DNA of 37,469 bases from Accumulibacter sp. (GTDB lineage: Bacteria > Pseudomonadota > Gammaproteobacteria > Burkholderiales > Rhodocyclaceae). The notes under the pieces were generated by a model that was not told the DNA's origin, made no database searches, and was given only the letters and a program-made list of their open reading frames with translations. The stretch covers positions 1 to 37,469 of the forward strand of contig NZ_JAMTDV010000028.1 in assembly GCF_023806565.1 (NCBI RefSeq), read 5' to 3'. The position numbers were made by a program, and so were the translations under genes. How positions within the stretch are numbered: position 1 is the first letter of the stretch; each line of letters starts with the position of its first letter. Positions 496 through 37,234 of this stretch are shown piece after piece.

Positions 496-551
496 GCTGA
501 TTGAAACGTGATTTCCTGGTCACCTCCCTGTTGGTATGCGTCTCCTAAGAT
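496..551 (+). promoter_or_regulatory. Predicted CusR-type box and promoter (site 1)
   Basis: The element reads GCTGAT-N6-GTGATT at 496-513, the most degenerate plus-strand member of the family. GGTCAC follows at 518-523, and the -10-like hexamer TAAGAT lies at 546-551. The hexamer starts exactly 33 bp after the element ends, as at the other sites. The predicted transcript leads into the CopK-like gene at 612 with a leader of roughly 55 nt. There is no good -35, which is consistent with activator dependence. Confidence 0.55.
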
Positions 552-611
552 GGCATCACCGTCGGACGAGATATGCCCGATGGAATCAACCCATCTCACA
601 AGGAGTAAACC

Positions 612-911
612 ATGAAAACCAAGCTTGCCAAACTGGCCCTGATTGCGGTCTTGAGCACCTCAGGTGCGACAACCGCGTTTGCCGATGATGCTGCCCGTGC
701 CGAAGCGAAACAGGTTGTCGATCTGAAAAACGGGGCAACCCTTTACATCTTCAATGATGGGAAAATGGCGATCGAGGACCGGTACGGTCGTGCCACTCGA
801 ACGACTCCGGGCACGGAGGTAGAGACCAGTGATGGACGGAAAATCACGACGCAGAGTGACGAGGTCGCGCGTCTGAATTCCCTGATCAACAAAGGGCACA
901 AAGGAGGCTGA
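612..911 (+). CDS. CopK-like periplasmic protein lacking the Cu(I) methionines
   Basis: This 99-residue protein begins after a strong AAGGAG site and has a Sec signal peptide ending near TAFA (residue 24). The mature part follows the CopK pattern: a DLKNG strand, then FNDGKM, ETSDG and a GHKGG tail. CopK of Cupriavidus metallidurans binds Cu(I) in the periplasm through Met28, Met38, Met44 and Met54 of the mature protein. Here those positions are Ile54, Thr64, Val70 and Thr80, and only the equivalent of Met26 (Met52) remains. The fold is therefore probably kept but Cu(I) binding is probably lost. Its promoter, leader and signal peptide resemble those of the czcE-like gene at 24392, while the mature part resembles copK at 23894. 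Family assignment is firm; function is open. Confidence 0.8.
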   Translation: MKTKLAKLALIAVLSTSGATTAFADDAARAEAKQVVDLKNGATLYIFNDGKMAIEDRYGRATRTTPGTEVETSDGRKITTQSDEVARLNSLINKGHKGG

Positions 912-939
912 GGCTAAACAGCCGATTCCTCTGATCGTG

Positions 940-965
940 AAGCGGCTCCTTCGGGGGCTGCTTCC
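940..965 (+). terminator. Possible terminator hairpin after the CopK-like gene
   Basis: An 11-bp stem with two G-T pairs closes a TTCG tetraloop (gaagcggctcc / ggggctgcttc). It lies 29 bp after the stop codon at 911 and between convergent genes. The T-tract after it is poor (cgttt). The rest of 912-1167 shows nothing else. Confidence 0.4.
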
Positions 966-1167
966 GTTTGGCAGTAACGAGAAAGCAGTGAACGCATTTC
1001 CTGTCGCAGTTCGGTGCTGCTGGCCTGGACAAGCTTTGGCGAACATCTCGGGTGCAGTCCCTATGAACGCCGCAGCAACTTATCGTTGCGCCCCTGATGC
1101 ACAAACGCCCGGTATGCGGTCGACACACCGGCCATAACCCAGAAGTCTGTATCAAAGGCGGTCTTGG

Positions 1168-2556
1168 CTACATTTGCAGCTCAAATATGGTGACCCCATC
1201 GGCCGACCGAACCGATACGGATCCTCCATGCGCTTGAATGATCGAGCGTGTGAGCGCCAGCCCCAGACCAACTCCATCGGCAAGGCGTTTCCTTGAAGGG
1301 TCTGCCCGGTAGAAACGGTCAAAGAGACGCGGCAGATGTTCTGGCGAGATCGTCTCGCCGGAGTTTTCAACCTGGATCGTTGCCATTCGGTCTTCATTCT
1401 TGCCGATCTGAATTCGTACGTAACCTCCTCGGGGGGTATGCCCAAAGGCATTCGACAGCAAGTTGCCGATGGCTCTACGCAACATCAACCGGTCTCCGGT
1501 TACGGTAGCGCTCCCGTCTACAGTCAGAGCAACGCTGTTTTCCTCGGCGACAGCCTCGTAGAACGAGGCTAATCCTTCCGCCTCTGCCCGAAGATCAACG
1601 GCCTCGAGATTTGGTACCACGAGGTTATTGTCGGCCTTGGCGAGGAACAGCATGTCGGCGATCATTTTCGCCATGCGCTCCAGTTCCTCCGCGTTTGACG
1701 CAAGTACATCCTGATATTCGTCAATCGTCCTGACACGCAAGAGCATGACTTGGGTCTGCGTCAGCAGATTGCTCACCGGCGTTCGCAGTTCGTGGGCAAT
1801 ATCCGAGGAGAAATCCGACAACCGCCGGAAAGAATCCTCCAGACGGGCTAGCATCTGGTTCAGAGTCTCGGCAAGATCCACCAGTTCGATCGGGATCGAT
1901 TCGGTAGCTAACCTGGAGTGCAGGCGATCCGCTGTAATGGCCGCTGCCTCCAGCTTGATCGCGTGCAATGGCGCCAACCCGCGTCTGACAGCCACCCAGC
2001 CGAGAAATCCGGTCATGAGTGCAGCCAGAATCACGACAGACCATAATGTGAATCGAAACCAACTCATGAAGTGTTCGTGCTTCGATATGTCCGTCGCTAC
2101 GGCAACGACGGCAGGTTTCGCCCCCTCGATGCCGGTTTTGACCATCGCCGAAATCCCGCGCAGCGGTATGTGATCCGTCGATTTCCAGATGATCGGACCC
2201 GAGTTGGTCATATCAGGGCTTCGCGCAAGCAAGACCTGTGGAAACTCGGCACCACTGGTAACAAACAGGGTTTGTCCTGAAGGCGCCACCACAATGACCG
2301 CCAGGCCATGATGCCCCACCAGGGAGTCATCCAGTTGCTGTGGCAAAGCATCTAGGTCGCTTTGCGAATGAACCTTTTCCAGCGCGTGCCGGGTCAGTTC
2401 CAGTTTGCCGGTCAGTACCTCCATGTCCTGCACTTCGAAATGGTGCTCGACTGAATTGCCGATCAAAAGCCCAAGCACAAGCAGGACGGCGGTCGATGCC
2501 GAAGCGAATAGCAGCGTCAGGCGGAAAATGATGGATTTGCGTCCGGCTGATTTCAC
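1168..2556 (-). CDS. cusS: Heavy-metal sensor histidine kinase, CusS/CopS type
   Basis: A 462-residue inner-membrane sensor kinase. TM1 is near residues 10-32, a periplasmic sensor domain follows to about 165, TM2 is near 168-190, and a HAMP segment leads to the H-box with phospho-acceptor His255 (in IAHELRTP). The N-box ([10 protein letters not shown]) and G-boxes ([21 protein letters not shown]) of the ATPase domain are present, so it should be active. The periplasmic domain contains His residues but no obvious metal cluster. The start is GTG at 2556 and overlaps the cusR stop (GTGA), so the two are translationally coupled. CusS-type kinases respond to periplasmic Cu(I)/Ag(I); the copper genes around it fit this. 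Confidence 0.9.
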
Positions 2557-3230
2557 TCGGCGATCTCCAACACATACCCCATTCCACGAACGGTGCGGAT
2601 CAGCTTGAGTTCGAAGTCTTCGTCGATCTTGAGCCGCAAACGCTTGATCGCCACCTCGATAACGTTGGTGTCACTGTCGAAGTTCATGTCCCACACCTGA
2701 GAGGCGATCAGCGAGCGCGGCAGCACTTCGCCCTGCCGTCGCAACAGCAATTCGAGCAGAGCGAACTCCTTCACCGTCAGGTCGATTCGCCTGCCGGCGC
2801 GGGTGACGCGCCGCCGCATCAGGTCGAGTTCTAGATCGGCTGCGCGCAGATACTCGGACTCCTTCGTCTTGCTGCCGCGCCGCAGATGGATACGCACGCG
2901 CGCCAACAGTTCGGCGAAAGCGAAGGGCTTCACCATGTAATCGTCCGCCCCTAACTCCAGGCCGTGCACACGATCCTGCACCTGATCGCGGGCCGTCAGG
3001 AACAATACCGGCATGTCCTTGCCGGCCCTGCGAATGCCCTGTAACACCGCCCAGCCGTCGATACCGGGCAGCATGACATCCAGTATCGCCAGGTCATAGG
3101 CATCGGTCTGAGCGAGATGCAACCCATCAAGGCCATCACGCGCCAGGTCGACAACGAACCCGGCTTCGGTCAGGCCTTGTCGCAGGTAATCCCCGGTTTT
3201 GATCTCGTCTTCGACCACCAGTATTTTCAT
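2553..3230 (-). CDS. cusR: OmpR-family response regulator, CusR/CopR type
   Basis: A 225-residue response regulator with a receiver domain (acidic pair in VVEDE, phospho-acceptor Asp51 in AILDVMLPG, conserved Lys in YMVKPFAF) and a C-terminal winged helix ending in [12 protein letters not shown] chose the ATG at 3230 because GGAG lies 6 nt upstream; longer readings would run into the promoter region. It forms an operon with cusS. Upstream at 3291-3308 is a perfect palindrome shared with the divergent Czc operon, so it may regulate itself. It is the only regulator in the window and the best candidate to bind the nine related sites. Confidence 0.92.
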
Positions 3231-3290
3231 GTGCATCTCCCGTGTTGCAATTTGGGCTATTCTGCGCCGGCAACTTAGGCAATCCCCCAA

Positions 3291-3346
3291 GATTACCGAA
3301 ATGTAATCTGAAGGTCAGCATGGCGTTAACTGGTGTTACGCAGAAT
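3291..3346 (+). promoter_or_regulatory. Predicted CusR-type box and promoter (site 2)
   Basis: This is the best member of the family: GATTAC-N6-GTAATC at 3291-3308, a perfect inverted repeat. GGTCAG follows at 3313-3318 and the -10-like CAGAAT starts at 3341, 33 bp after the palindrome. It drives the plus-strand Czc operon. On the minus strand a CAGAAT at 3259-3264 could serve cusRS, but its spacing (27) differs. Confidence 0.7.
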
Positions 3347-3449
3347 TCGCTCATCGTCGAACAGGAGCGAACGCTGTGGAAACTCATACTCGAAATCGTC
3401 AGGAAATTGCGGGCCGTCGCCTATTCCTGCTTCTTTCTTCCCGGCAGTC

Positions 3450-4709
3450 ATGAAACCCGTGAGGTTTCATCAATTCCGCCAACTGAGGCGAGCGGCAGTT
3501 TGCGCCACCGTACTGCTTGCCGGTCTATCCGTACAGGCGGCAGAAACGCCAAAATCCGGACTGGCGACAGCCGTCGAACAGGCCTGGCACTTGAACCCGC
3601 AAGCCGCCGGATTGGATGCCCGCGAGGCCGAAGCACGCGCAGCGCAGGATGTCGCGGCTGGGCTGACGCCCGAGCCAGGTTCGGTCAGCATCGGCAACTT
3701 GAACGACCGGTTCGACCGCAATCAGGGCAAGCAGGAATACGAGGTCGAACTGGCGGTGCCGTTGTGGCTGCCCGGCCAGAAAGCGGCGCGCGAAGCCGAG
3801 GCAAGCAGTCGCATTGACGAAGCCGTTGCCAGACGCACCGCCGTGCGTCTGGAGGTCAGCGGCGAAGTGCGGGAGGCATGGTGGGCGTTGGCCGCAGCCC
3901 GCAGTGCCAAGGTTCTGGCCTCGCGTCGTCTGGAAACCGCCCGCGCTTTGGAAACCGACGTCATGCGGCGCTACAAGGTGGGCGAACTGTCGCGCATCGA
4001 TGCCAACCTCGCGCAATCCGAGACCCATGCCGCCAATGCCGAATTGATCGAAGCGGAAGCAAACCTGCTCCAGGCCGAGCAGGCCGTACAAGTCCTTACT
4101 GGTTCTCCTGCCCCGAAGAATCTGGACGAAGAGTCGCCGACAACGCGACGACTGGCGGATGAAACCGGCGATTCAGCCGCATCTCATCCCTTGCTGGCTG
4201 TTACCGCCGCCGCCGCGCGCAGCGCCCGTGCGCGCGTCAAGGTCGCGGATGAGTCGCGTCGTGCCGCGCCGGAACTGACGCTGCGGGTCGTGCGCGAGCG
4301 GGACGACTTTGCCGACTCCTATTCCAACAACGTAGGCATCAAACTCAAGATCCCGTTCTCGTCCGGTTCGCAAGTACGTCGGGAAACGTCGGCGGCACAG
4401 GCCGAGGCGAATCAGTCCGATGCCGATTTGCTGCGTACCCACACCCGGGTCCGGCTCGACGCCGAGCGCGCGCAGCGCAACCTGCAATCGGCCGAACGCC
4501 AGTTCACCATGGCGCAGGAGCGCCGCCAGCTTTCCGCCGAGAACCTGCGCCTTGCCGAGAAAGCCTTTGCGCTAGGCGAATCCGATCTGACGACCTTGCT
4601 GCGCATTCGCTCCGCCGCCTTCGATGCCGATGCCTTTCTTGACCGCCAGCGCGTCGCCCGCGCCGCTGCGATATCGCGTTTGAACCAATCCATGGGGGTG
4701 CTGCCGTGA
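3450..4709 (+). CDS. TolC-family outer membrane efflux protein, CzcC type
   Basis: A 419-residue outer membrane channel of a tripartite heavy-metal pump. It has a signal peptide (about residues 1-30, ending near VQAAE) and then the long Ala/Glu/Arg-rich helices and repeated layout of the OEP family. The start at 3450 is preferred because an in-frame start at 3333 would lie upstream of the predicted -10 at 3341. The ribosome binding site is weak (ccggcag). The stop overlaps the next gene's GTG start. It should join the adaptor and pump encoded downstream to form a channel across both membranes. Confidence 0.85.
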   Translation: MKPVRFHQFRQLRRAAVCATVLLAGLSVQAAETPKSGLATAVEQAWHLNPQAAGLDAREAEARAAQDVAAGLTPEPGSVSIGNLNDRFDRNQGKQEYEVELAVPLWLPGQKAAREAEASSRIDEAVARRTAVRLEVSGEVREAWWALAAARSAKVLASRRLETARALETDVMRRYKVGELSRIDANLAQSETHAANAELIEAEANLLQAEQAVQVLTGSPAPKNLDEESPTTRRLADETGDSAASHPLLAVTAAAARSARARVKVADESRRAAPELTLRVVRERDDFADSYSNNVGIKLKIPFSSGSQVRRETSAAQAEANQSDADLLRTHTRVRLDAERAQRNLQSAERQFTMAQERRQLSAENLRLAEKAFALGESDLTTLLRIRSAAFDADAFLDRQRVARAAAISRLNQSMGVLP

Positions 4710-6378: not shown

Positions 6379-6379
6379 T

Positions 6380-10588: not shown

Positions 10589-10644
10589 AATGACAGAAAT
10601 GTAATCCCGCGGTCAGGCTGGTGTTGGTGTCCGCAGTTCATACT
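10589..10644 (+). promoter_or_regulatory. Predicted CusR-type box and promoter (site 3)
   Basis: AATGAC-N6-GTAATC at 10589-10606, GGTCAG at 10611-10616, and the -10-like CATACT at 10639-10644, again 33 bp after the element. Predicted transcription starts about 23 bp before the DUF411 gene at 10674. Confidence 0.7.
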
Positions 10645-10673: not shown

Positions 10674-11111
10674 ATGAAACCCGCTATCCGCACCACAGTC
10701 CTGCTTGCCCTGTTCGCGCCTGCCGTATGGGGGGCCGAAGCGCTGCCGACCGTCAAGGTTTACAAGACACCGACCTGCGGCTGCTGCAGCAATTGGGTGG
10801 ATCACATGAAGGCCAGCGGGTTCAAGGTCGTCACGCAGGACATGAACGACGTCACCCCGCACAAGCAGCGACTGGGCGTCCCACCGGCGATGGGCTCCTG
10901 CCACACCGCCGAGGTTGCCGGCTACCTGATCGAGGGCCACGTGCCGGCCGCCGACGTCAAGCGCCTGCTCGCCGAGAAGCCGCAGGCCAAGGGCCTCGTC
11001 TCCCCGGGAATGCCGCAGAGCGCACCCGGCATGGACGCGCCCGGCAAGCAGCCCTACGAGATTTTCCTCGTGCGCCAGGACGGCAGTACCGCAACTTACG
11101 CACGTCATTAA
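10674..11111 (+). CDS. DUF411 periplasmic metal-binding protein (first copy)
   Basis: A 145-residue secreted protein with a signal peptide to about residue 20. The DUF411 core follows: a thioredoxin-like strand (VKVYKTP), Cys35-Gly-Cys37-Cys38, then GSCHT with Cys76 and a GYLIEGHVPA segment. DUF411 proteins occur in copper and silver resistance loci and are thought to bind metal through these cysteines; the exact role is not settled. It has a strong AAAGGAG site and heads the operon leading to copA. A paralogue lies at 25953. Confidence 0.88.
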   Translation: MKPAIRTTVLLALFAPAVWGAEALPTVKVYKTPTCGCCSNWVDHMKASGFKVVTQDMNDVTPHKQRLGVPPAMGSCHTAEVAGYLIEGHVPAADVKRLLAEKPQAKGLVSPGMPQSAPGMDAPGKQPYEIFLVRQDGSTATYARH

Positions 11112-16330: not shown

Positions 16331-16343
16331 GCGTTCGCCTGCC

Positions 16344-23381: not shown

Positions 23382-23390
23382 GTGTCGTCC

Positions 23391-23597: not shown

Positions 23598-23606
23598 CGT
23601 GGGAAA

Positions 23607-24392: not shown

Positions 24393-24453
24393 GGTTCTCT
24401 CCTTGTGACATCGGGTTAATCGTGTCGGACTCATTTCGTCCAACCGCGATGCC

Positions 24454-25862: not shown

Positions 25863-25918
25863 CATTACACAAATGTAATCAGCGGGACAGCTAATTGTTG
25901 GCATTGCCTATCCATACT
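25863..25918 (+). promoter_or_regulatory. Predicted CusR-type box and promoter (site 6)
   Basis: CATTAC-N6-GTAATC at 25863-25880, GGACAG at 25885-25890 and the -10-like CATACT at 25913-25918 (33-bp rule kept). It drives the DUF411-cusF-cusCBA operon. The IS5-type element ends only 12 bp upstream, leaving the site whole. Confidence 0.7.
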
Positions 25919-26393: not shown

Positions 26394-26411
26394 TCCCAAT
26401 AGGAGAAACCC

Positions 26412-26756: not shown

Positions 26757-26834
26757 CAAGATCGACTGGCGGCGAGAGGGTGATTCCATCTCGCTGCCAG
26801 CATGCTCCACAAAATGAATATTTCAGGAGGTCGC

Positions 26835-28106
26835 ATGCGCCGACTCAGGCCGTTATCCATTTTGATCCTGGCGCTTGCCACCGCCTCTGGCGCGCCCGTT
26901 CTTGCCCAGGAGGCCGCCCTCGGTGCGAACGTCGACACCCTGATCAATTACGCCAAGACGCGCAATCCGGAGTACGCCGCGATGCAGGCCGAGGCCGAAG
27001 CATCGGGCGAGCGGGTGACGCCAGCTGGTGCCTTGCCCGACCCGAAATTCCGTACTGAATTGCGCGACATCACCCGGATGGGCGAACAAAGCGCAACGCT
27101 TTCCCCAAGTCGCGTCGGCAGCACCCGTTACCTGCTGATGCAGGACATTCCCTGGTTTGGCAAGCGCGACCTGAAGCGCGAGATTGCAGAGCTTGAAGCC
27201 GACGGAGCCAAGGGTCGTGCGCTGGGCACCTGGGCAGATGTGGCCGGGCGGATCAAAGTCAATTTCGCCCAGCTTTATTACGTGCACCGCAATGAGCAAT
27301 TGACCCGGGAAATCCTCGACCTGATGACCCGCCTGGAAAAAGTCGCCCAGGTACGCTATTCCGGCGGCCTGGCGGCACAGCAGGATGTCATCCGAGCCCA
27401 GGTCGAGCAGACCAACATGCGCAACGAGTTGATTGCCTTGGAAACCGAACAGCACCACCTGCATGCCCGGCTGAACGCCTTGCTGGCCCGCCCAAACAAT
27501 GCGCCGTTGCAGGTGCCAACCCAGTTGCGCAAGCTGCCGGCGCCGGTGACGCTGGATTACGCCACGCTGGAAGAGCGCGTGCGCACCCGCAACCCGCAAC
27601 TGTTCGCCGACGAATCGAAAATCAAGGCTGCCGAGAAATCTCGCGACCTGACCTACAAAAACCGCTATCCCGACTTTACGCTGGGCGTATCCCCCATCCA
27701 GTACCAGAACTCCATCAAGGAATGGGAGTTGATGTTCGAAGTGAATATCCCGCTGCAACAGTCTTCGCGGCGGTCGCAGGAGCGGGAATCCGAGTCGATG
27801 CTCAATGCCGCCCGCTCGCGCAAGGAAGCCACCACCAACCAGGTCTCCGCCGAACTGGCCGAGGCCCTGTCCGGCATCGAAGCCGCCCGTCGCACGGAAA
27901 ACCTGCTGACAAACAGTCTGCTGCCGCAGGCCGAATTGACCTTCAAGGCGGCACTGGCCGGCTACGAGACCGGCAAGGTGGATTTCGCCACGTTGCTAGA
28001 TTCCCAGCGCCAAATCCGGCAGGCCAGACAAGACCAGCTTAAGGCTCAAGTCGACGCCCAGATGCGTCTGGCCGAAATCGAACGTCTTTTAGGGGAAGAT
28101 CTATGA
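26835..28106 (+). CDS. cusC: Outer membrane channel of the Cus system
   Basis: A 423-residue TolC-family protein. ATG 26835 follows GGAGG by 4 nt; an ATG at 26802 is less likely. A signal peptide to about residue 25 (VLAQEA) precedes long helices with the repeated OEP layout (ARTRNPEYAAM-like N-terminal helix, FGKRDLKREIAEL, YETGKVDFATLLDSQRQI near the end). Its TGA overlaps the cusB ATG. With CusBA it forms the export duct. Confidence 0.87.
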   Translation: MRRLRPLSILILALATASGAPVLAQEAALGANVDTLINYAKTRNPEYAAMQAEAEASGERVTPAGALPDPKFRTELRDITRMGEQSATLSPSRVGSTRYLLMQDIPWFGKRDLKREIAELEADGAKGRALGTWADVAGRIKVNFAQLYYVHRNEQLTREILDLMTRLEKVAQVRYSGGLAAQQDVIRAQVEQTNMRNELIALETEQHHLHARLNALLARPNNAPLQVPTQLRKLPAPVTLDYATLEERVRTRNPQLFADESKIKAAEKSRDLTYKNRYPDFTLGVSPIQYQNSIKEWELMFEVNIPLQQSSRRSQERESESMLNAARSRKEATTNQVSAELAEALSGIEAARRTENLLTNSLLPQAELTFKAALAGYETGKVDFATLLDSQRQIRQARQDQLKAQVDAQMRLAEIERLLGEDL

Positions 28107-29731
28107 ACAAGGGTGCGGGACTGACCGTCGGCGTTATTGCGGTTGCCATGGCAGCCGGTAGTGGTTACTGGCTGGGCGGACGTGGTGACGCTTCCCATGG
28201 CGATGCAGCATCGGTCGCCAGCGCCTCAGCCGAGCCGGCCAAGAAAGAGAAAAAGCTGCTCTTCTACCGCAATCCGATGGGGCTGCCCGACACTTCGCCT
28301 GTGCCCAAGAAAGATCCGATGGGGATGGATTACATCGCGGTCTATGAGGGAGAGCAGGATGACGAACCGGCATCTGCCAACCAGATCAAGATCAGTACCG
28401 AGAAGGTGCAGAAACTGGGTGTGCGGACGGAAGCCGCCCAATTGCGCGTCCTTGACAAGGTGGTCCGCGCCGCCGGTCGTATCGAACCGGACGAGCGCCG
28501 TATCTATGCGATCTCTCCCAAGTTCGAGGGCTACGTCGAGCGCCTGCACGTCAATGTCACCGGCCAGCCGGTCGGCAAGGGGCAGCCGCTGTTCGAGGTC
28601 TACAGCCCGGAACTGGTTTCCGCCCAGCGCGAATACGCGATTGCCGCCCAAGGCGTCGAATCGCTGAAGGAAGCCGACGGCCCAGCGCGGGATGGCATGA
28701 AGCAACTGGCCGATTCCAGCCTGTTACGCCTGAAGAACTGGGATATTTCGGAGGAGCAGGTCAAGGCCTTGGCCAAGTCCGGCGAAGCGCGGCGCACGCT
28801 GACTTTCCGCTCGCCGGTTTCCGGCATCGTCACCGAGAAGAAGGCGCTACAGGGCATGCGTTTCATGCCGGGCGAGGCGCTTTACCAAGTGGCAGACCTG
28901 TCGGCCGTCTGGGTGGTCGCCGACGTGTTTGAGCAGGACATCGGCCAGGTCAGGACTGGGGCCAAGGCCAAGGTCAGGATCAACGCCTACCCGGACAAGA
29001 CCTTCGAAGGCACGATCAGCTATGTCTATCCGACCTTGAACGCCCAGACGCGCACGGTACCGGTTCGCGTCGAACTGGCCAATCCGGGGCTGCTGCTCAA
29101 GCCGTCGATGTTCGCCCAGGTCGAACTGCCGGTGGGTGCCAAAGGCCAGGTTGTCACGCTGCCGACCTCCGCCGTAATCGACAGCGGTGCCCGCCAGATC
29201 GTGCTGATCCAGCAAGGCGAAGGTCGCTTCGAGCCACGCGAAATCAAGCTCGGTGGCCGCAGCGACAATCATGTCGAAGTGCTGGAGGGTGTCAAAGATG
29301 GCGAGCAGGTGGTGGTCGCTGCCAACTTCCTGATCGATGCCGAGAGCAACCTCAAGGCAGCGGTCGGCGGTTTCGGCCACGCCGCCCACGGTGCCGCCCC
29401 GACGGACGGAAAACCGGCAGTGCCCGGACAGGCAGCCGCCAAAGGATCCAGCCACCAGGCCGAAGGTACGGTGGATGGCATTGACGCGGCAGCCGGCACG
29501 ATCAGTCTCAATCACGGCCCGGTCGCCAGCCTCAAATGGCCGACCATGACCATGGAGTTCAAGGCCGCCAACGCATCGCTGCTGCAAGGGCTGAAACCGG
29601 GGGCCAAAGTCGCCGTCGAGTTCGTCGAGCGGCAGCCCGGCGAATGGGTGATTACGGCCGTCAAGCCGCTGCCAGCAAACCAGGGAGCCGGCACGCCGGC
29701 CGTCGGCGCCAACCCGCACGCCGGTCACTGA
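28103..29731 (+). CDS. cusB: CusB adaptor with a fused C-terminal CusF domain
   Basis: A 542-residue adaptor. After the N-terminal membrane anchor comes a heavy-metal-binding segment (LFYRNPMGLPDTSP ... DPMGMDYIAVY, about 53-83). The barrel, lipoyl and hairpin domains follow, with FEVYSPELVSAQREY, SPVSGIVTEK and VWVVADVFEQDIGQV typical of CusB. Residues about 452-525 form a complete CusF domain with His471, Trp479, Met482 and Met484, the full canonical Cu(I) site. So this operon carries one Trp-type CusF in cis and one Met-type CusF in trans. Confidence 0.93.
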   Translation: MNKGAGLTVGVIAVAMAAGSGYWLGGRGDASHGDAASVASASAEPAKKEKKLLFYRNPMGLPDTSPVPKKDPMGMDYIAVYEGEQDDEPASANQIKISTEKVQKLGVRTEAAQLRVLDKVVRAAGRIEPDERRIYAISPKFEGYVERLHVNVTGQPVGKGQPLFEVYSPELVSAQREYAIAAQGVESLKEADGPARDGMKQLADSSLLRLKNWDISEEQVKALAKSGEARRTLTFRSPVSGIVTEKKALQGMRFMPGEALYQVADLSAVWVVADVFEQDIGQVRTGAKAKVRINAYPDKTFEGTISYVYPTLNAQTRTVPVRVELANPGLLLKPSMFAQVELPVGAKGQVVTLPTSAVIDSGARQIVLIQQGEGRFEPREIKLGGRSDNHVEVLEGVKDGEQVVVAANFLIDAESNLKAAVGGFGHAAHGAAPTDGKPAVPGQAAAKGSSHQAEGTVDGIDAAAGTISLNHGPVASLKWPTMTMEFKAANASLLQGLKPGAKVAVEFVERQPGEWVITAVKPLPANQGAGTPAVGANPHAGH

Positions 29732-29755
29732 CCGAGAACCACGGAGAGTCGCCCC

Positions 29756-32700
29756 ATGTTGGCCAATATTATCGGATGGTCGGGCCGGAACCGCTTCCTG
29801 GTCTTGTTCGCCACCCTATTCATCACTATCGCCGGCATTTATGCCGTATTGCGCACGCCGATCGATGCCTTGCCTGACCTCTCGGACGTGCAGGTCATCG
29901 TCTATACCGAGTATCCCGGCCAGGCGCCCCAGGTCGTCGAGGATCAGGTCACCTATCCGCTCACTACAGCCATGCTGTCGGTGCCGAAATCAAAGGTGGT
30001 GCGCGGTTTTTCGTTCTTCGGCGCCTCCTTCGTGTACATCATTTTCGAGGATGGCACCGACATCTACTGGGCGCGCTCGCGCGTCCTTGAATATCTCAAT
30101 TTCGCCTCCAGCCGCATGCCGAAGGGCGTCACGCCGTCGCTTGGGCCGGACGCCACCGGCGTCGGCTGGGTTTACCAGTACGCGTTGCTCGCCAAAGACA
30201 AGACGCTGGCCGAACTGCGCACCATTCAGGATTGGTACGTCCGCTATCAACTGACCAAGGCCCATGGTGTCGCCGAAGTGGCCTCGATCGGCGGCTTCGT
30301 TCAGACCTACCAGGTCACCGTCGACCCGGTCAAGCTGCGTTCCTACGGCATTCCGCTGATGAAGGTGGCACAGGTCATCCGCGACTCGAACCGCGATGTC
30401 GGCGGACGCGTCGTCGAGATGGCCGAAACCGAGTACATGGTGCGCGGCAAGGGCTACCTGCGCGGCAAAAGCGATCTTGAAATGCTAGTCGTCAAAAGCG
30501 ACAAGGGCACGCCAGTGCTGATCCGCGACATCGCTCGCGTCGAACTGGTGCCTGATGAACGGCGCGGCCTGACCGAACTCAACGGTGAAGGCGAAGTTGT
30601 GTCGGGCATCGCCATGGCGCGCTATGGCGCCAACGCGCTGGAGGTCATCCATAACCTGAAAGCCAAGATCGACGAAATCGGCGGCGGCTTGCCGGCCGGC
30701 GTCACCGTCGAGACGGTGTACGACCGTTCCGAACTGATACACCGCGCCATCGACACGTTGAAACGGACGCTGATTGAGGAAGCGGTCATCGTCGCGCTGG
30801 TCTGCATCGTCTTCCTGATGCACGTGCGCAGCGCGCTGGTCGCCATCCTGATGTTGCCGGTCGGCGTGCTGATCGCTTTCATCGCCATGCGATCGCTGGG
30901 CCTGAACTCCAATCTGATGAGCCTGGGAGGCATTGCCATCGCCATTGGCGCCATGATCGACGCCGCCATCGTGATGATCGAGAACGCCCATAAACACTTG
31001 GAACGCCTGCCCGAAGGGCATACCACCGCCGAGCGCGCTGATGCGATGCTCGCCGCCTGTAAGGAAGTCGGCCCGGCGCTGTTCTTTTCCTTGCTCATCA
31101 TCACCGTCTCCTTCCTGCCGGTGTTCGCCCTCGAAGGCCAGGAAGGGCGGCTGTTCTCGCCGCTCGCCTACACCAAGACCTTCTCGATGGCCGGCGCGGC
31201 GCTGCTGTCGGTGACGCTGGTGCCGGTGCTGATGATGCTGTTCATCCGCGGCAAGATCATGCCGGAAGCGAAGAATCCGGTGAATCGCTTCCTGATCTGG
31301 GTCTACCGGCCGATCATCGCCGGCATCATGCGCTGGAAGAAAACGACCATCGTTGCTGCCGTCGTCGCCTTGGTGGCCTCGATTTACCCGGCCTCTCAAC
31401 TCGGCTCGGAGTTCATGCCGACGCTCAACGAAGGTTCGCTGCTTTACATGCCGGCGTCCTTGCCCGGCATGTCGATCACCAAGGCCGCCGAGCTGCTGCA
31501 GACGCAGAACAAGATCATCAAGAGCTTTCCCGAGGTTACTTCGGTCTATGGCAAGGCCGGGCGCGCCAATACGGCGACCGATCCGGCGCCGACCGAGATG
31601 TTCGAGACGGTAATCAACCTGAAGCCGGAGTCCGAATGGCGCCCGGGCCTGACCACCGACAAGTTGATTGCCGAACTCGACAAGGCCCTGCAATTCCCCG
31701 GCGTCGCCAATTCCTGGACGATGCCGATCAAGGCGCGCATCGACATGCTGTCCACCGGCATCCGCACGCCGATCGGCATCAAGGTCTTCGGCAAGGATCT
31801 CGGCGAAATGGAAAAGGTTGCCAGGGAAATCGAAGCCGTCGTCAAAGCCGTTCCCGGAACGACCAGCGCCTACGCCGAACGCATCACCGGCGGCTTCTAC
31901 CTGAACATCGAACCGGACCGCGAACAGCTGGCGCGCTACGGCCTGGCCGTCGGCGACCTGCAGGACGTGATCGGCACGGCGCTCGGCGGCGAAATGGTGA
32001 CGACCACGGTCGAGGGCCGCGAACGCTTCGGCGTCAGCGTGCGCTATCCGCGCGAATTGCGTTCCGACCCGCAGCAGATCGCCCGCGAAGTGCTGATCCC
32101 GACCATGGACGGCGCGATGATTCCGCTCGGGCAACTGGCCAGGGTGGGCGTCGCCAAGGGCGCGCCGTCGATCCGCACCGAGAACGCGCTGCTCTCAGCC
32201 TATATCTTCGTCGACATCCGCGACCGCGACATCGGCAGCTACGTCGCCGACGCCAAGAAGGCGGTCGCCGAACAGGTCAGCTTCCCGCCCGGCTACTACG
32301 TCACCTGGAGCGGCCAGTTCGAGTACATGGAACGGGCTATCGAGAAGATGAAAATCGTCATCCCGGTGACGCTGCTGTCGATCTTCCTGCTGCTCTACCT
32401 CAACTTCAAGCGCCTCACCGAAACGCTGATCGTCATGCTCTCGGTGCCTTTTGCGCTGGTCGGCGGCGTCTGGCTGATGTGGTGGCTCGGCTACAACCTG
32501 TCGGTCGCCGTCGCCGTGGGCTTCATCGCCTTGGCCGGGGTCGCGGCGGAAACCGGGGTGATCATGCTGATTTATCTCGATCATGCTTGGGAAGCGTTGA
32601 AAGCCAAACGTCGGACGGATAATCAGGCCCCAACGCTGCACGATCTCTACGAGGCCATCATGGAAGGCGCCGTGGAACGGGTTCGCCCGAAAATGATGAC

Positions 32701-32890
32701 GGTGGTGGCAATCATGGCGGGCCTGCTGCCAATCATGTGGGGCACGGGGACAGGCTCCGAAGTCATGAGCCGCATTGCGGCGCCGATGGTCGGCGGGATG
32801 ATCTCGTCGACGGTGCTGACGCTCGCGGTCATCCCAGCCATCTACGCTTTGGTCAAGCAGTGGCGAATCAAACGGGGAATGGAGCAATGA
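29756..32890 (+). CDS. cusA: Cu(I)/Ag(I) efflux RND pump CusA
   Basis: A 1044-residue proton-driven pump. The TM4 motif AIGAMIDAAIVMIEN with proton-relay Asp402 is the Cu/Ag class signature. The three methionines that bind Cu(I) in E. coli CusA (Met573, Met623, Met672) align with Met565 (LLYMPASLPG), Met615 (APTEMFET) and Met664 (RIDMLSTGI). Membrane helices and both porter loops are complete. It takes Cu(I) from CusB/CusF or the cytoplasm and exports it through CusC. Confidence 0.95.
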   Translation: MLANIIGWSGRNRFLVLFATLFITIAGIYAVLRTPIDALPDLSDVQVIVYTEYPGQAPQVVEDQVTYPLTTAMLSVPKSKVVRGFSFFGASFVYIIFEDGTDIYWARSRVLEYLNFASSRMPKGVTPSLGPDATGVGWVYQYALLAKDKTLAELRTIQDWYVRYQLTKAHGVAEVASIGGFVQTYQVTVDPVKLRSYGIPLMKVAQVIRDSNRDVGGRVVEMAETEYMVRGKGYLRGKSDLEMLVVKSDKGTPVLIRDIARVELVPDERRGLTELNGEGEVVSGIAMARYGANALEVIHNLKAKIDEIGGGLPAGVTVETVYDRSELIHRAIDTLKRTLIEEAVIVALVCIVFLMHVRSALVAILMLPVGVLIAFIAMRSLGLNSNLMSLGGIAIAIGAMIDAAIVMIENAHKHLERLPEGHTTAERADAMLAACKEVGPALFFSLLIITVSFLPVFALEGQEGRLFSPLAYTKTFSMAGAALLSVTLVPVLMMLFIRGKIMPEAKNPVNRFLIWVYRPIIAGIMRWKKTTIVAAVVALVASIYPASQLGSEFMPTLNEGSLLYMPASLPGMSITKAAELLQTQNKIIKSFPEVTSVYGKAGRANTATDPAPTEMFETVINLKPESEWRPGLTTDKLIAELDKALQFPGVANSWTMPIKARIDMLSTGIRTPIGIKVFGKDLGEMEKVAREIEAVVKAVPGTTSAYAERITGGFYLNIEPDREQLARYGLAVGDLQDVIGTALGGEMVTTTVEGRERFGVSVRYPRELRSDPQQIAREVLIPTMDGAMIPLGQLARVGVAKGAPSIRTENALLSAYIFVDIRDRDIGSYVADAKKAVAEQVSFPPGYYVTWSGQFEYMERAIEKMKIVIPVTLLSIFLLLYLNFKRLTETLIVMLSVPFALVGGVWLMWWLGYNLSVAVAVGFIALAGVAAETGVIMLIYLDHAWEALKAKRRTDNQAPTLHDLYEAIMEGAVERVRPKMMTVVAIMAGLLPIMWGTGTGSEVMSRIAAPMVGGMISSTVLTLAVIPAIYALVKQWRIKRGMEQ

Positions 32891-33633: not shown

Positions 33634-33689
33634 AGTGACCGAATTGTAATCCTCCCGTTATTGGGGCGACAGCTACCCACAGGCAAACT
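33634..33689 (+). promoter_or_regulatory. Predicted CusR-type box and promoter (site 7)
   Basis: AGTGAC-N6-GTAATC at 33634-33651 and the -10-like CAAACT at 33684-33689, again starting 33 bp after the element. The third block is weak here (cgttat). It points to the phasin-like gene at 33736. Confidence 0.6.
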
Positions 33690-33735: not shown

Positions 33736-34038
33736 ATGTCCGCACACAATTCGTTCGCTATCTTCAATGTACCCTCCGACCTCCATTTGGATTTGGTTGC
33801 CCGGCTGGTTGACGTGAATCTCGACTGTTTGGAAAGGATGGTTTCCACGCAGTTTTCCCCGATCAAGGAACTCCTTGAGCGAACACCGTCGTTTTCTCTG
33901 GATCAACCTGGGCAAACAGGGGCATGGTGGGCTGCCGTAGGCTTTTTCTCCATCAAGTATTGGAAGGCATGCACCCTCGATAGTTTGGATTACCAACACC
34001 GAGTTCTGCAGACGCTGGCCCGACATTCGGCAAAGTGA
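33736..34038 (+). CDS. Phasin-like small protein
   Basis: A 100-residue soluble protein. The segment VARLVDVNLDCLERMVSTQFSPIKELLE resembles the amphipathic helix of phasin-family proteins, which coat polyhydroxyalkanoate granules. The rest is short and not typical, and the protein is shorter than usual phasins, so it may be truncated. A copper-type promoter precedes it. Family assignment is tentative. Confidence 0.5.
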   Translation: MSAHNSFAIFNVPSDLHLDLVARLVDVNLDCLERMVSTQFSPIKELLERTPSFSLDQPGQTGAWWAAVGFFSIKYWKACTLDSLDYQHRVLQTLARHSAK

Positions 34039-34070: not shown

Positions 34071-34302
34071 CAAGACTCCTCCGGGAAGCTCATTGTCTGT
34101 GCGGAAATAATCAAAATACTCAACGAGAACCTGGTTGAACTTCGTCAGGTGGCCCAGGATGCGTTGGAAAACGGAATTCTGATGGGGTGTTGCGGACGGC
34201 AATTGCGTGAGGCGCTCGCTGACGTAATCGGGCATTTGGTGAAACCGTATTCGGCAACGCTTGCTAACGACAATGTAATTTGCAAGTCACCTTGTTGACG
34301 GC
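34071..34302 (+). other. Decayed coding remnant after the phasin-like gene
   Basis: One frame is open from 34071 to a TGA near 34302 and encodes a helical stretch (IIKILNENLVELRQVAQDAL) that again looks phasin-like, but it has no start codon before 34182. It may be the detached 3' half of the preceding gene or of a second copy. Site 8 lies inside its end. Confidence 0.35.
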
Positions 34303-34318
34303 GACAGAAGCATAAACT
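34263..34318 (+). promoter_or_regulatory. Predicted CusR-type box and promoter (site 8)
   Basis: GCTAAC-N6-GTAATT at 34263-34280, AGTCAC at 34285-34290 and the -10-like TAAACT at 34313-34318 keep the family geometry. The left half-site is weaker. Transcription would start about 50 bp before the gene at 34375. Confidence 0.55.
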
Positions 34319-34374: not shown

Positions 34375-34624
34375 ATGAAAATCTCTTCCCTCATCGCCGC
34401 TGTTCTGTTCGCTGGAGCAGCCACGACGGGTGCCGTCTACGCCGATGACAAGGCCGCGGCCCCGAAGGCTGCCGAAGCACAGGCTGACAAGGCGGCTGAC
34501 AAGCCCGCATTCTCATCTCCAGGAGAAGACCGGTATCCCGCAAAGCATGCCGGATGCGAAGGCCGATAAGCCCAACGCAGCCAAGTACAAGAGCAAGCAC
34601 TACCATCCACGAGATATGAAGTAA
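34375..34624 (+). pseudogene. Small secreted Lys/His-rich protein, frameshifted
   Basis: ATG 34375 starts a clear signal peptide (MKISSLIAAVLFAGAATTGAVYA) and an Ala/Lys-rich linker. Around 34508 the frame is lost. The other frame then continues as SHLQEKTGIPQS-like sequence and ends KSKHYHPRDMK at 34624. A missing CA pair (gcacattc changed to gcattc) would explain it: adding 2 nt restores 83 codons. As written it ends early at 34569. Confidence 0.65.
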
Positions 34625-34653
34625 CTTGCCTGTAAGGCCCCGACTTTTCAGCT

Positions 34654-34904: not shown

Positions 34905-35543
34905 ATGGCAGGAGTTCCATCCATTTCCCCAGCTGCAAACACCCCGTCGCCACCGGTGCAAGGCGGACATGAGGAACATGGAGGGGGGACGGCTATCACC
35001 GACAACGGAGCATTTTCCCAAGCCTTGAATCAGGCGATTGCCCAAAAATCCAACAATCGCGGAGGCGGCCACGGTACTCATGGCAGAGAATTTTCTGGGA
35101 CGGCATCCAGTACGACATCGGCCCATCCCAAGGACCTCTCAATCGGGCAAGGTGGTCATGCCGGCCATGATTTTCAGCAGAAAATGCTTGGGGTTCGGGC
35201 GTATCGGCAGCAACTTCTGGCCTCGAATATCGCCAATGCCGATACGCCTGGCTACAAGGCGGTCGATATCGACATCAATGAGGCCGCCCGAGTCGTCACG
35301 AGCACGGCGGCATCGCTATCGTTGGCCACTACCGCTAATGGCCATCTGTCAGGGGGAACGCAGGCACCACCGTTCCCGCTGAAGTTCCATGTACCGTATC
35401 AAGCCGCAGCCGATGGTAATACGGTGGAGATGGATGTTGAGCGACAGAAGTTTTCCGAAAACTCACTGATGTACCAATTTTCCCTTGATCGGGTCAGCGG
35501 GCATTTCAAGCATCTCATGGAATTACTACAGAATTTGAAATGA
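34905..35543 (+). CDS. FlgB-like flagellar rod protein with a His-rich N-terminal extension
   Basis: A 212-residue protein. Residues about 92-120 carry the rod-protein signature (VRAYRQQLLASNIANADTPGYKA), and the C-terminus matches FlgB (GNTVEMDVERQKFSENSLMY). FlgB is usually about 130-140 residues. Here about 90 extra residues precede the core, with His/Gly motifs GGHEEHGGG, GGGHGTHG and GGHAGHD that could bind metal. No other flagellar gene is present. It overlaps the HD-GYP gene by ATGA, so the two are coupled. Function in this setting is unknown. Confidence 0.8.
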   Translation: MAGVPSISPAANTPSPPVQGGHEEHGGGTAITDNGAFSQALNQAIAQKSNNRGGGHGTHGREFSGTASSTTSAHPKDLSIGQGGHAGHDFQQKMLGVRAYRQQLLASNIANADTPGYKAVDIDINEAARVVTSTAASLSLATTANGHLSGGTQAPPFPLKFHVPYQAAADGNTVEMDVERQKFSENSLMYQFSLDRVSGHFKHLMELLQNLK

Positions 35544-36847
35544 AAACCATTGAACTCCCTGAAACTCCCCGGCAATTGCACCACCTGTTGGCACGACGCC
35601 TTGGCATCGGTGCGCTTCTGGTTGGCAGTCTCGCGGGAGGTCTTGCCTACTGGGTCGAATCGTATCGCGTCGAGCAGCGTACTCTTGAGCGCGCTATTAC
35701 GGGGGTCAGGCATTTCGAGTCGCCTGCAATGCAGTTGGCGGTCGGCGGTGAGAAAGGAGATGGTCATTCCGCGATTTCGCAGTTGCTGACCGACGAGTTT
35801 GTCGGGATTCGAGTTTTTGCATCCAATGCCGAGATGCTGTTCGACGTCTGGCGACCACTGCCCGAAACATTGAAAGAGTTTGCCCGACAGCAGCGCCATC
35901 CATGGCCAATCCCGCCCAATAGCCATAGCAAGCGAATCCCCGTGGCAGGAGAAGAACTGGTCCAGGTCATTCTGCCGATGACCACGAATGATGGCCGTCT
36001 TGTGGGCTATGTTGAGGGGATCAGCCTGGTTTCCCAGTCAGCCTTGCATGAGAGAAAACTTCAGACTCGTGGGGCTGCGCTAACAGCCACGATTTCGGTA
36101 CTCGCCGCGGCACTGCTGCTCTATCCATTGATGTCAGGATTGCTGGGGCGTACGGTGGCATTGTCGTCTCGACTCCTGGACGCCAATCTCTCACTGCTGC
36201 GATCTCTCGGAAACGCCATCGCCAAGCGTGACGCGGACACCGACGCCCATAACTACCGGGTTACCTGCTATGCGGTCACACTTGCTGAAGCGGTGGGCGT
36301 TGACAAGGAAACCGTTACCGAACTGGTGCTGGGCGCCTTTCTCCACGACGTTGGAAAAATCGGTATCCCGAATCAGATTTTGTTGAAACCGGGACGGCTG
36401 ACCAGCGAAGAATTCCAGGTCATGCAGACCCACGCAGTGCTGGGCATCGAGATTGTCGCTGGCAATCCCTGGCTGTCCGGTGCCGAGAAGACCATCCGGC
36501 ATCATCACGAACGCTTTGACGGGAAAGGCTATCCAGACGGACTTTCAGGAAAGGCGATACCGCTCGCTGCAAGAATCTTTGCCCTGGTGGACGTGTTCGA
36601 TGCATTGACCTCCGTTCGTCCCTACAAACCAGCTTTGTCATTGGACGAGACGCTGAGCATCATGGAACGGGAGGCTGGGCAGCATTTCGACCCGGCGATC
36701 TATGCCGTCTTCCGCCAGATTGCTCCGATGCTATACGAGCAAGGCCAGTCCAGAGATCACACCCAATGGATACTGGAACTGAAGGTGATGCTTGAACGGT
36801 GCTTCAAAATGAAAACGGCCCCCGAAGGAGCCGTCGAATTTGCGTGA
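35540..36847 (+). CDS. Membrane HD-GYP domain protein (probable c-di-GMP phosphodiesterase)
   Basis: A 435-residue protein. TM1 is near residues 18-38, a periplasmic sensor-like region follows (about 40-170), TM2 is near 176-198, then the HD-GYP domain. The catalytic His269-Asp270 (LHDVGKIGIP), the HHHERFDGKGYPDG stretch with Gly330-Tyr331-Pro332, and LVDVFDALTS are all present, so it should hydrolyse c-di-GMP. Its coupling to a His-rich FlgB-like protein suggests a link between metal stress and surface behaviour (inference). A fragment of a close paralogue is at 23391. Confidence 0.9.
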   Translation: MKTIELPETPRQLHHLLARRLGIGALLVGSLAGGLAYWVESYRVEQRTLERAITGVRHFESPAMQLAVGGEKGDGHSAISQLLTDEFVGIRVFASNAEMLFDVWRPLPETLKEFARQQRHPWPIPPNSHSKRIPVAGEELVQVILPMTTNDGRLVGYVEGISLVSQSALHERKLQTRGAALTATISVLAAALLLYPLMSGLLGRTVALSSRLLDANLSLLRSLGNAIAKRDADTDAHNYRVTCYAVTLAEAVGVDKETVTELVLGAFLHDVGKIGIPNQILLKPGRLTSEEFQVMQTHAVLGIEIVAGNPWLSGAEKTIRHHHERFDGKGYPDGLSGKAIPLAARIFALVDVFDALTSVRPYKPALSLDETLSIMEREAGQHFDPAIYAVFRQIAPMLYEQGQSRDHTQWILELKVMLERCFKMKTAPEGAVEFA

Positions 36848-36856
36848 TGCGGGAAA

Positions 36857-37144
36857 TCAAGGACCGCGATGCCCTTCGCGTAGCAGTGGGTTGAGGCGCA
36901 TGACTTCGTCGCCGTGCATGATGATCTTCTGACCATCCTTGGTTTCCATCACCATGCCTTTCTCCATGCGAATCGCACGACCGAGTTTGTCCTCCATGCC
37001 CATTTTCCCATCCTTGAAAATGTAGACCGTCGAGCCATCCTTCAGCTCAATCACTTGCTTTGCAGCAGCGCGAGCAGCATCGGATGCGAATGCGGTCACT
37101 GAGACCGCGCTCATCAGGGCAACCATCAGCATTTTTTTCATCAT
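36857..37144 (-). CDS. copK: CopK periplasmic copper-binding protein (second Met-intact copy)
   Basis: Identical to the copK at 23607-23894 except in the last codons, where the protein ends RLNPLLREGHRGP instead of RLDNLLKEGHTGG. All four Cu(I) methionines are kept. Same start logic (37144, GAGGAG 6 nt before) and an identical promoter. It converges with the HD-GYP gene 9 bp away. Confidence 0.93.
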   Translation of the reverse strand: MMKKMLMVALMSAVSVTAFASDAARAAAKQVIELKDGSTVYIFKDGKMGMEDKLGRAIRMEKGMVMETKDGQKIIMHGDEVMRLNPLLREGHRGP

Positions 37145-37178
37145 TTCAATCTCCTCAAGAAGTTGTACTGCAGTATGA

Positions 37179-37234
37179 ATAGTAGGGTGTTGATCCTGAC
37201 AATTTGCCATCCAGTAAGTGACAAGTTCGTCACT
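37179..37234 (-). promoter_or_regulatory. Predicted CusR-type promoter of the second copK (site 9)
   Basis: Exact copy of site 4: AGTGAC-N6-GTCACT at 37234-37217 on the minus strand and TACTAT at 37184-37179. Confidence 0.65.

Follow-up and report, generated by a model that had tools for sequence, protein, structure and literature searches.

Nine sites in the window, the whole 37,469-nucleotide stretch of Accumulibacter sp. DNA analysed here, share a fixed distance between a copper-box palindrome and a -10-like hexamer. Judged from their sequence, these segments are very probably activator-dependent sigma-70 promoters of the CusR/CopR regulon that work by class II activation. A heavy-metal response regulator and a sensor kinase are linked to the sites (TIGR01387, TIGR01386, CusS domain), and the imperfect palindrome TKACANNNNTGTMA lies upstream of copper genes, as expected of a cop box.

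Layout of the nine sites

All nine sites listed in an earlier note on this DNA were present (Table 1), most of them 2 bp to the right of the palindrome positions given there. The consensus TKAC-N6-GTMA proposed for them was strict in six (3293, 10591, 23969, 25865, 33636, 37219), degenerate in two (498, 34265) and limited to the right half in one (24494-24507). The hexamer sequences had been read correctly, and their distance from the box was constant in nine of nine, with 34 bases between GTMA and hexamer instead of the 33 claimed. The same off-by-one affected the RGTCAS/GGACAG block, which was found in six of the nine as described, after 6 bases instead of 5. The lack of a good -35 was borne out in all eight distinct promoters, where the best TTGACA match at spacings of 15-19 was 2-3/6.

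We counted offsets from the G of the palindrome's right half (= 0). The third block of the earlier note repeats the box half-site in direct orientation, 11 bp further downstream. A fourth, weaker half-site follows 11 bp past it, and the -10 hexamer begins 16 bp after the start of the fourth. The operator is thus read from its sequence as one inverted half-site plus three direct half-sites in 11-bp steps: inverted half-site at -10, GTAA at 0, GTCA at +11, GTYG at +22 and hexamer YANNNT at +38. The +11 block was GTCA, GACA or GTTA in 7 of the 8 distinct window promoters and GATG at the copK promoter (23982), which has GTCA at +22 in place of GTYG. At +22 the sequence is degenerate, and the pattern used for it was drawn up after inspection of the window. 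The promoters at 23969 and 37219 are two copies of one duplicated copK promoter, identical over 151 bp, and those at 498 and 24494 look paralogous, leaving about seven independent lineages.

Table 1. Predicted promoters and genes of the window (positions in the whole stretch)
Position (strand)	Feature	Parts	Evidence or remark
498..551 (+)	CusR-type promoter, predicted; upstream of copK-like gene	box 498-511 (TGAT-N6-GTGA); +11 GTCA 519-522; +22 GTTG 530-533; -10 TAAGAT 546-551	profile E 4.9e-8 (in training)
612..911 (+)	CopK-family protein, 99 aa		Pfam CopK E 3.7e-25
1168..2556 (-)	CusS sensor kinase		Pfam CusS sensor domain E 2e-24; TIGR01386 over cut-off
2553..3236 (-)	CusR response regulator, heavy-metal subfamily of OmpR/PhoB type		TIGR01387 over cut-off; homology sets in near 3236, which makes TTG at 3290 an improbable start for cusR
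3259..3264 (-)	Putative cusR -10	CAGAAT	+32 from the 3293 palindrome, opposite side
3293..3346 (+)	CusR-type promoter, predicted to drive cusC	box 3293-3306; +11 GTCA 3314-3317; +22 GTTA 3325-3328; -10 CAGAAT 3341-3346	profile match (in training)
3333..4709 (+)	CusC-type outer membrane factor ORF		Pfam OEP; probable start inside, near 3450
10591..10644 (+)	CusR-type promoter, predicted	box 10591-10604; +11 GTCA 10612-10615; +22 GTTG 10623-10626; -10 CATACT 10639-10644	profile match (in training)
10674..11111 (+)	DUF411 protein, presumably CopG-type		Pfam DUF411 E 7.5e-25
23607..23987 (-)	CopK ORF		Pfam CopK E 1.1e-31; probable start inside
23929..23982 (-)	CusR-type promoter, predicted to drive copK	box 23969-23982; weak +11 GATG 23958-23961; +22 GTCA 23947-23950; -10 TACTAT 23929-23934	profile match (in training)
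24000..24578 (-)	CzcE-like small exported protein ORF		Pfam CzcE E 7.7e-21; probable start inside
24454..24507 (-)	CusR-type promoter, predicted	half box 24494-24507 (TTTC-N6-GTAA); +11 GTCA 24483-24486; +22 GTTG 24472-24475; -10 TAAGAT 24454-24459	profile match (in training)
25865..25918 (+)	CusR-type promoter, predicted	box 25865-25878; +11 GACA 25886-25889; +22 GTTG 25897-25900; -10 CATACT 25913-25918	profile match (in training)
25953..32890 (+)	Gene run: DUF411, CusF, CusC-type, CusB-type with CusF domain, CusA-type		Pfam
33636..33689 (+)	CusR-type promoter, less certain	box 33636-33649; +11 GTTA 33657-33660; +22 GACA 33668-33671; -10 CAAACT 33684-33689	profile match (in training)
33736..34038 (+)	100-aa orphan protein		"phasin-like" in the earlier note
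34265..34318 (+)	CusR-type promoter, predicted	box 34265-34278 (TAAC-N6-GTAA); +11 GTCA 34286-34289; +22 GACG 34297-34300; -10 TAAACT 34313-34318	profile match (in training)
34375..34630 (+)	Small exported peptide gene, ends HPRDMK		frame broken inside; end approximate
36857..37237 (-)	Second copK ORF copy		near-identical protein; Pfam CopK at 36869-37069
37179..37232 (-)	CusR-type promoter, predicted		copy of the 23929-23982 promoter

The probability that these sites are chance matches chosen by eye is negligible. Three of the nine are not strict palindromes and the patterns were chosen by the author of the earlier note, but the profile matches described below are confined to copper loci, and shuffled flanks never reproduced the layout. 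In 5000 trials each, with patterns formulated after the data were seen, no shuffle gave YANNNT at one offset in 8/8 promoters, GTMA at one offset in 5/8, or the loose +22 pattern in 8/8. We also ranked 74,814 positions with an outside matrix built solely from the cusC promoters of relatives. It recovered seven of the nine sites as ranks 1-7 (in order 10591, 25865, 3293, 24494, 34265, 33636 and 498), with the copK pair at ranks 16-17, the 23982 promoter taking rank 17. The part of the matrix downstream of the palindrome alone placed six sites at ranks 1-6, 33636 at 120th and the copK pair at 1806-1807th; the palindrome part alone placed 498 at 98th and the copK pair at 25-26th. The score of 33636 rests mostly on its box.

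Genome-wide matches and a second CusR

The earlier note had proposed a genome scan with a profile of the sites. With a profile built from 10 promoters, the 3.7-Mb genome gave 15 matches at E<=10, all at copper loci, 9 on the window contig and 6 on contig C139; full scoring covered 150 of 1123 first-look candidates and may have passed over weak sites. The four matches outside the training set (E 1.1e-6, 2.6e-4, 8.2e-4 and 0.07) lie upstream of a CzcE gene, a gene for a small HHHPRDGK peptide and two CopK genes, respectively. The hexamer stood at +38 in 13 of the 14 distinct promoters of this genome. At C139 40333 (E 0.07) both the +22 block and the hexamer are shifted by 1 bp, indicating that the spacing is not perfectly rigid. 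A box-only pattern matched four places in the genome outside the window, two with both the +11 GTCA and the +38 hexamer and two with neither.

Contig C139 carries a second CusR, 80% identical to that of the window and surrounded by sites of the same kind. The main user of the window sites might therefore be another heavy-metal response regulator, either this CusR or a CzcR/AgrR-like protein, with the window CusR secondary. A single site is common to regulators of the heavy-metal subfamily in Pseudomonas (PMC11195947). We consider this reading unlikely, since the window cusR lies on the contig of the nine sites, with one of which it is divergently arranged, and the two CusR paralogues closely resemble each other in their C-terminal DNA-binding stretches, which makes joint use likelier than replacement. 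The extended operator of box, further subsite and -10 for a window-encoded CusR-type regulator, as proposed in the earlier note, is supported; its restriction to one local regulator is unsupported, given the second CusR with its own sites and the occurrence of the layout at E. coli cusC and throughout the phylum.

Target genes

The window targets comprise three CopK genes, a CzcE-like gene, two DUF411 genes (one of them followed by CusF and cusCBA genes), cusC, the gene for a small exported peptide and that for a 100-aa orphan. The peptide has a relative encoded in the C139 copper locus, and the layout of its promoter at 34265 is kept at the homologous place in another genome (G011, L164:1835). 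A regulon extending to genes not usually tied to copper had been suggested, but the profile search of the genome, with 150 of 1123 candidates fully scored, gave no such site. The single odd target is the orphan at 33736-34038, which has no Pfam match. The label "phasin-like" did not hold: no Pfam or NCBIfam family matched this protein at E<=5. Phasin identity was dropped; the homologue in G011 likewise lacks a phasin match in Pfam, and there was no plasmid hit. The orphan occurs in 3 of the 61 genomes searched, its own included.

Conservation of the -10 distance

We then considered promoters picked by their box, regardless of downstream blocks. Orthologues of the 3293 cusC promoter were found in relatives, and 30 cusC-side promoters came from 25 of 29 loci, four loci lacking a suitable box where one was expected. 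GTCA stood at +11 in 25 of these, G[TA][TC][GCA]G at +22 in 19 and YANNNT at +38 in 19. YANNNT was commoner at +13 (27/30), because the conserved block there reads CAGCTT. Conservation was close to background (0.0-0.3 bits) across +6 to +10 and +33 to +37 and reached 1.3-1.9 bits at +11 to +14; positions +15 to +18 were conserved too, so that the blocks lack sharp bounds. On the cusR side (29 promoters, 28 after removal of duplicates), direct half-sites were absent and YANNNT was commonest as a -10 at +32 (13/28). The direct half-sites may therefore confer direction, with the -10 at +38 on the side that has them and most often at +32 on the other side of the same palindrome.

Across the phylum, we collected 24 boxes facing away from the regulator from 23 loci; 6 of 30 loci had no upstream box, one box (L230) is that of C139 in the present genome, and the set is defined by box direction, not by the identity of the gene faced. 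GTMA stood at +11 in 13, G[TA][TCA][AGC] at +22 in 12 and YANNNT at +38 in 16. On the regulator side, 4 of 22 boxes likewise had GTMA at +11, indicating that the one-sided rule is not general. A third set came from 43 CopK/DUF411 loci, of which 5 from the present genome were excluded; 28 of the remaining 38 had no box within 500 bp. Its nine distinct boxes (L184 and L185, being identical, count as one; L186 differs from them by a few bases) showed the +38 hexamer in 7, the +22 block in 8 and the +11 block in 4. The offset +38 was thus the commonest in the three sets or, where the +13 block exceeds it, the next commonest, and the hexamer was missing there in 11/30, 8/24 and 2/9. Most promoters chosen blind to the blocks, in relatives and across the phylum, keep the -10 distance.

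A public scan for the box returned at least 120 boxes, from many unrelated taxa by title among the matches listed. Among the 120 listed, GTCA stood at +11 in 9 (mean per offset 0.5), and YANNNT at +38 in 13, at +5 in 14 and at +27 in 12, which is weak evidence for the -10 distance. The fixed plan is also present in E. coli and many other bacteria. E. coli K-12 cusC, whose CusR box is quoted in PMC11195947, resembles the window sites in TGAC-N6-GTCA, GTCA at +11 and a -10-like TAAAGT at +38, and differs in having ATCA at +22 and in being one promoter, against 15 here.

These sets also bear on whether the likeness reflects one promoter copied within copper islands, and not selection on the layout. 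Copying has occurred at the 23969/37219 pair, and at 498, 24494, C139 41222 and C139 40333 the common sequence extends beyond the -10. Near-background stretches nonetheless lie beside conserved +11 to +14 in relatives, and the layout recurs ahead of other genes in other families and likewise at E. coli cusC, making copying alone very unlikely.

Proposed activation and comparison with known systems

We infer that copper sensed by CusS would lead to phosphorylation of CusR, which would occupy the palindrome and the direct half-sites, +22 included, on the same face of the helix. The direct half-sites sit in the place of the -35, and bound CusR may thus recruit RNA polymerase to a promoter lacking this element through a class II contact. 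We propose that the spacing between the last half-site and the -10 is fixed because both are read by touching proteins. Transcription is predicted to start near +50 to +52.

The PhoB promoters phoA and pstS of E. coli, which have pho boxes and a -10, likewise carry GTCA in an 11-bp register replacing the -35. They lack the inverted half-site and answer to another regulator and signal. Their GTCA copies are spaced by multiples of 11 bp, and the distance from the last one to the hexamer is 15 bp, compared with 16 bp in the window. This parallel bears on the +22 block (GTTGG and similar), which might instead be a spacer contacted by polymerase or a degenerate -35-like element. The block lies between the -35 and -10 places, it is degenerate (on the cusC side of relatives, G at +22 in 27/30 and at +26 in 26/30, the rest mixed), and the available sections of the AgrR and pMOL30 cop accounts do not describe it as a half-site. 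We regard this alternative as rather unlikely, for the block holds the 11-bp step, and of the 8 distinct CopK promoters whose layout can be recognised, 5 (23982, C139 40735, L184, L186, L187) combine a perfect GTCA or GTAA at +22 with a weak +11; this pattern was not seen at 498, C139 40333 or L188.

A close precedent for the array is AgrR of Cupriavidus metallidurans, where footprints and mutants show that inverted and direct repeat both matter and that mutating either lowers activation (PMC7380067). AgrR differs in regulating silver resistance, and its box centre lies near -43.5 at its own promoter, compared with about -54 here; the available sections of that report contain neither a +22 site nor a fixed +38 rule (PMC7380067). 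In the pMOL30 cop cluster of C. metallidurans CH34, a 37-bp MEME motif, a putative CopR1 site, lies about 50 bp upstream of mapped starts at many copper promoters and is absent at copG, copK and copO (PMC7563307). Compared by its description in the available text, that motif is not divided into half-sites, unlike the array here (PMC7563307). The 11-bp repeat (PMC7380067) and the cop motif (PMC7563307) are already published, and the plan reveals no new kind of system.

More broadly, we suggest, at a little short of even confidence, that CusR/CopR/SilR regulators share one promoter grammar in Pseudomonadota. The palindrome would be only the upstream half of a four-subsite array; the two subsites nearest the polymerase would form a direct repeat like that of a pho box, its distance from the -10 nearly fixed. 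One-sided direct subsites could orient a shared cusR/cusC palindrome, and a weaker +11 could be offset by a stronger +22 or the reverse, as several copK promoters suggest. If true, such an array would sharpen the loose "copper box" into a rule for finding regulons and would tie palindromic CusR sites to direct-repeat PhoB sites. The window is rich in natural variants of a single metal-responsive promoter, and its genome has two CusR paralogues and 15 predicted sites. A shared grammar would also make start sites predictable to about 2 nt from sequence. The matrix made here finds the layout at copA and other pMOL30 places, and at C. metallidurans copA, the one mapped start compared, the rule predicts a start at 21006, within 2 nt of the published start at 21008 on NC_007971.2.

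Layout of the nine sites

All nine sites claimed in the earlier note are present in the window, one of 139 contigs of a 3.7-Mb genome. Numbered from the G of the palindrome's right half, each carries a half-site at position -10, GTMA at 0, blocks at +11 and +22, and a -10-like hexamer (YANNNT) at +38. The first half-site is TKAC in six of the nine, and position 0 of site 498 reads GTGA. The full TKAC-N6-GTMA palindrome was found at six, 34265 and 498 being degenerate and 24494-24507 a half only. The claimed fixed spacing held at all nine, with a box-to-hexamer gap of 34 bases rather than 33; likewise, the third block stands at a constant distance, preceded by six bases rather than five.

The promoter of copK has been duplicated, giving sites 23969 and 37219, and 498 and 24494 also seem to be paralogues; therefore, the nine sites represent about seven independent lineages. 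The upstream regions of both copK copies are identical across the 151 bp compared, and an 85% direct repeat (23360-23659 versus 36610-36909) takes in the copK 3' ends, which suggests recent duplication or gene conversion. Four promoters (498-600; 24420-24507; and, on C139, another contig of this genome, 41222 and 40333, locus L180) share an GGCATCACGGT-like sequence directly 3' of the -10; their genes are, in order, CopK, CzcE, CzcE and CopK. Some have an additional GTCA near +54. The shared sequence may be a 5'-UTR element or a trace of promoter duplication.

With shuffled flanks, the hexamer at one offset in 8/8 sites, GTMA at one offset in 5/8 and a loose +22 pattern in 8/8 were each reached in 0/5000 trials. 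These patterns were composed after the data had been inspected, so tests on other sequences weigh more. A matrix built only from cusC promoters of relatives placed seven of the nine sites at ranks 1-7 of 74,814 positions and the copK pair at 16-17. The section 3' of the palindrome by itself placed six sites at 1-6, 33636 at 120 and the copK pair at 1806-1807; the palindrome by itself placed 498 at 98 and the copK pair at 25-26. The best full scores in ten Markov windows were -2.4 to 14.7, versus 16.7 to 50.2 for the seven sites.

Conservation in other organisms

Comparison sets were picked by box or gene only. Among 30 cusC-side promoters of relatives (from 25 of 29 cusR loci), GTCA occurred at +11 in 25, G[TA][TC][GCA]G at +22 in 19 and YANNNT at +38 in 19, while +6 to +10 and +33 to +37 were near background. 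YANNNT was more frequent at +13 (27/30) than at +38, an effect of a conserved block with the sequence CAGCTT at +13. Since +15 to +18 is also strongly conserved (G at +15, C at +16 and, in 28/30, T at +18), the blocks lack sharp bounds; these bases possibly contact the regulator's wing or sigma. On the cusR side (n = 28), GTMA occurred at +11 once and the hexamer was most frequent at +32 (13/28), where the window's cusR also has CAGAAT. The palindrome at 3293-3306 is common to two divergent promoters, with the -10 at +38 toward cusC and +32 toward cusR, and in relatives' divergent cusR/cusC palindromes the direct half-sites lie on the cusC side.

This one-sidedness is not general, since GTMA occurred at +11 on the regulator side in 4/22 cases of a phylum-wide set (30 heavy-metal regulator loci, six without a box). 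In the 24 boxes facing away, one of them from this genome, YANNNT was at +38 in 16, GTMA at +11 in 13 and the +22 block in 12.

Among CopK/DUF411 genes of the order, 28 of 38 loci outside this genome had no box within 500 bp. Nine distinct boxes from other such loci had the hexamer at +38 in seven, +22 in eight and +11 in four. Of eight distinct CopK promoters in which the layout could be recognised, five (23982, C139 40735, L184, L186 and L187) paired a perfect GTCA or GTAA at +22 with a weak +11, and three did not; mainly because of this pairing, we read +22 as a true half-site.

Among 120 stretches listed from a public box scan, many from unrelated taxa, GTCA was at +11 in nine against a mean of 0.5 per offset, and YANNNT at +38 (13) showed no excess over +5 (14). 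Escherichia coli K-12 cusC has TGAC-N6-GTCA, +11 GTCA, +22 ATCA and +38 TAAAGT. By sequence comparison, the four-subsite layout with its near-fixed -10 is conserved well past the Accumulibacter sp. genome of the window.

Relation to known systems and proposed mechanism

CusS and CusR are both encoded in the window. In its C-terminal DNA-binding part, recognition helix included, this CusR closely resembles its E. coli namesake and CopR1 of pMOL30. E. coli PhoB promoters follow the same logic, with GTCA in an 11-bp register (0 and 11 in phoA; 0, 11 and 33 in pstS); we take these repeats to be pho boxes and the hexamers -10s. The last GTCA lies 15 bp ahead of the hexamer there, versus 16 in the window promoters.

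The Cupriavidus metallidurans pMOL30 copA promoter was found by the matrix, with GTAA at +11, GTAG at +22 and TACTCT at +38. Our rule predicted its start at locus position 21006; the start reported as RACE-checked at 191,243 (PMC7563307) corresponds to 21008, assuming numbering on NC_007971.2. This single mapped start therefore puts initiation between about +50 and +52, with the box centred near -54. According to the same source, a 37-bp motif lies ~50 bp 5' of most pMOL30 cop starts; the stretch from -10 to +26 in the window promoters has that same length. AgrR boxes (PMC7380067) already display an inverted repeat plus an in-phase direct repeat, as in the window promoters, with a poor -35 and type II activation, and in Pseudomonas one palindrome is reported as common to CusR, CopR and CzcR (PMC11195947). 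The nine sites belong to a known kind of promoter, refined to an array of four subsites with the -10 at a near-fixed distance. A search of open-licence literature did not turn up a rule of four subsites with the -10 at +38.

We infer that phosphorylated CusR would occupy the palindrome together with the direct half-sites in phase with it, including +22, which would stand in for a -35, and would bring in polymerase as a class II activator. Direct contact between CusR on the last subsite and polymerase would explain the near-fixed distance from that subsite to the -10.

Genome-wide search and predicted targets

The whole genome was scanned with a sequence-only profile of ten promoters (E <= 10; 150 of 1123 candidates fully scored). 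Among the matches listed, all lay on the window or C139, at copper loci; there were at least 15, nine on the window and six on C139, which encodes a second CusR (80% identity). Four C139 matches outside the training set had E values of 1.1e-6, 2.6e-4, 8.2e-4 and 0.07, two covering the profile only in part. The genes 3' of them are all copper-type: CzcE, a small HHHPRDGK-ending peptide resembling the target of the 34265 promoter, CopK and CopK. The hexamer was at +38 in 13 of 14 distinct promoters of this genome; in the weakest, C139 40333, it and the +22 block are displaced by 1 bp. The box-only pattern occurred at four places beyond the window: two on C139 near its CusR, with GTCA at +11 and the hexamer at +38, and two with neither.

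Predicted targets of the nine window promoters
Site	Target	Position	Remark
498	CopK-like gene	612	
3293	cusC	3333	
10591	DUF411 gene	10674	
23969 (-)	CopK gene	23607	
24494 (-)	CzcE-like gene	24000	
25865	DUF411 gene	25953	followed by CusF, then CusCBA-type genes
33636	100-aa orphan protein	33736	
34265	small exported peptide gene	34375	
37219 (-)	CopK gene	36857	

The phasin-like label has no profile support: at E <= 5, neither Pfam nor NCBIfam offered a family for the orphan, and its homologue in another genome, G011, had no Pfam phasin match. The orphan was found in 3 of 61 genomes searched, this one counted. Because the targets are copper-type save this protein, the wider, non-copper regulon is not supported. 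The orphan (33736-34038) is 100% identical to a protein in G019, a genome of the same genus (locus L163), where both flanking promoters read alike, pointing to a possible recent transfer of this stretch.

The region of the exported peptide has a homologue in G011 (locus L164) that keeps the same promoter layout. The HPRD-ending peptide's reading frame (34375-34630) is broken in the window and intact in G011. Amid the copper genes, 15332-21102 holds a sulfate-type ABC transporter set (binding protein labelled by eye) and a DDE transposase, and this stretch yielded no CusR site with a high score. Beyond the peptide gene, and likewise downstream of the 34265 promoter, 34905-36847 encodes a protein with a short Flg_bb_rod (flagellar-rod) match and an HD-domain membrane protein; the flagellar-like neighbour also occurs in G011.
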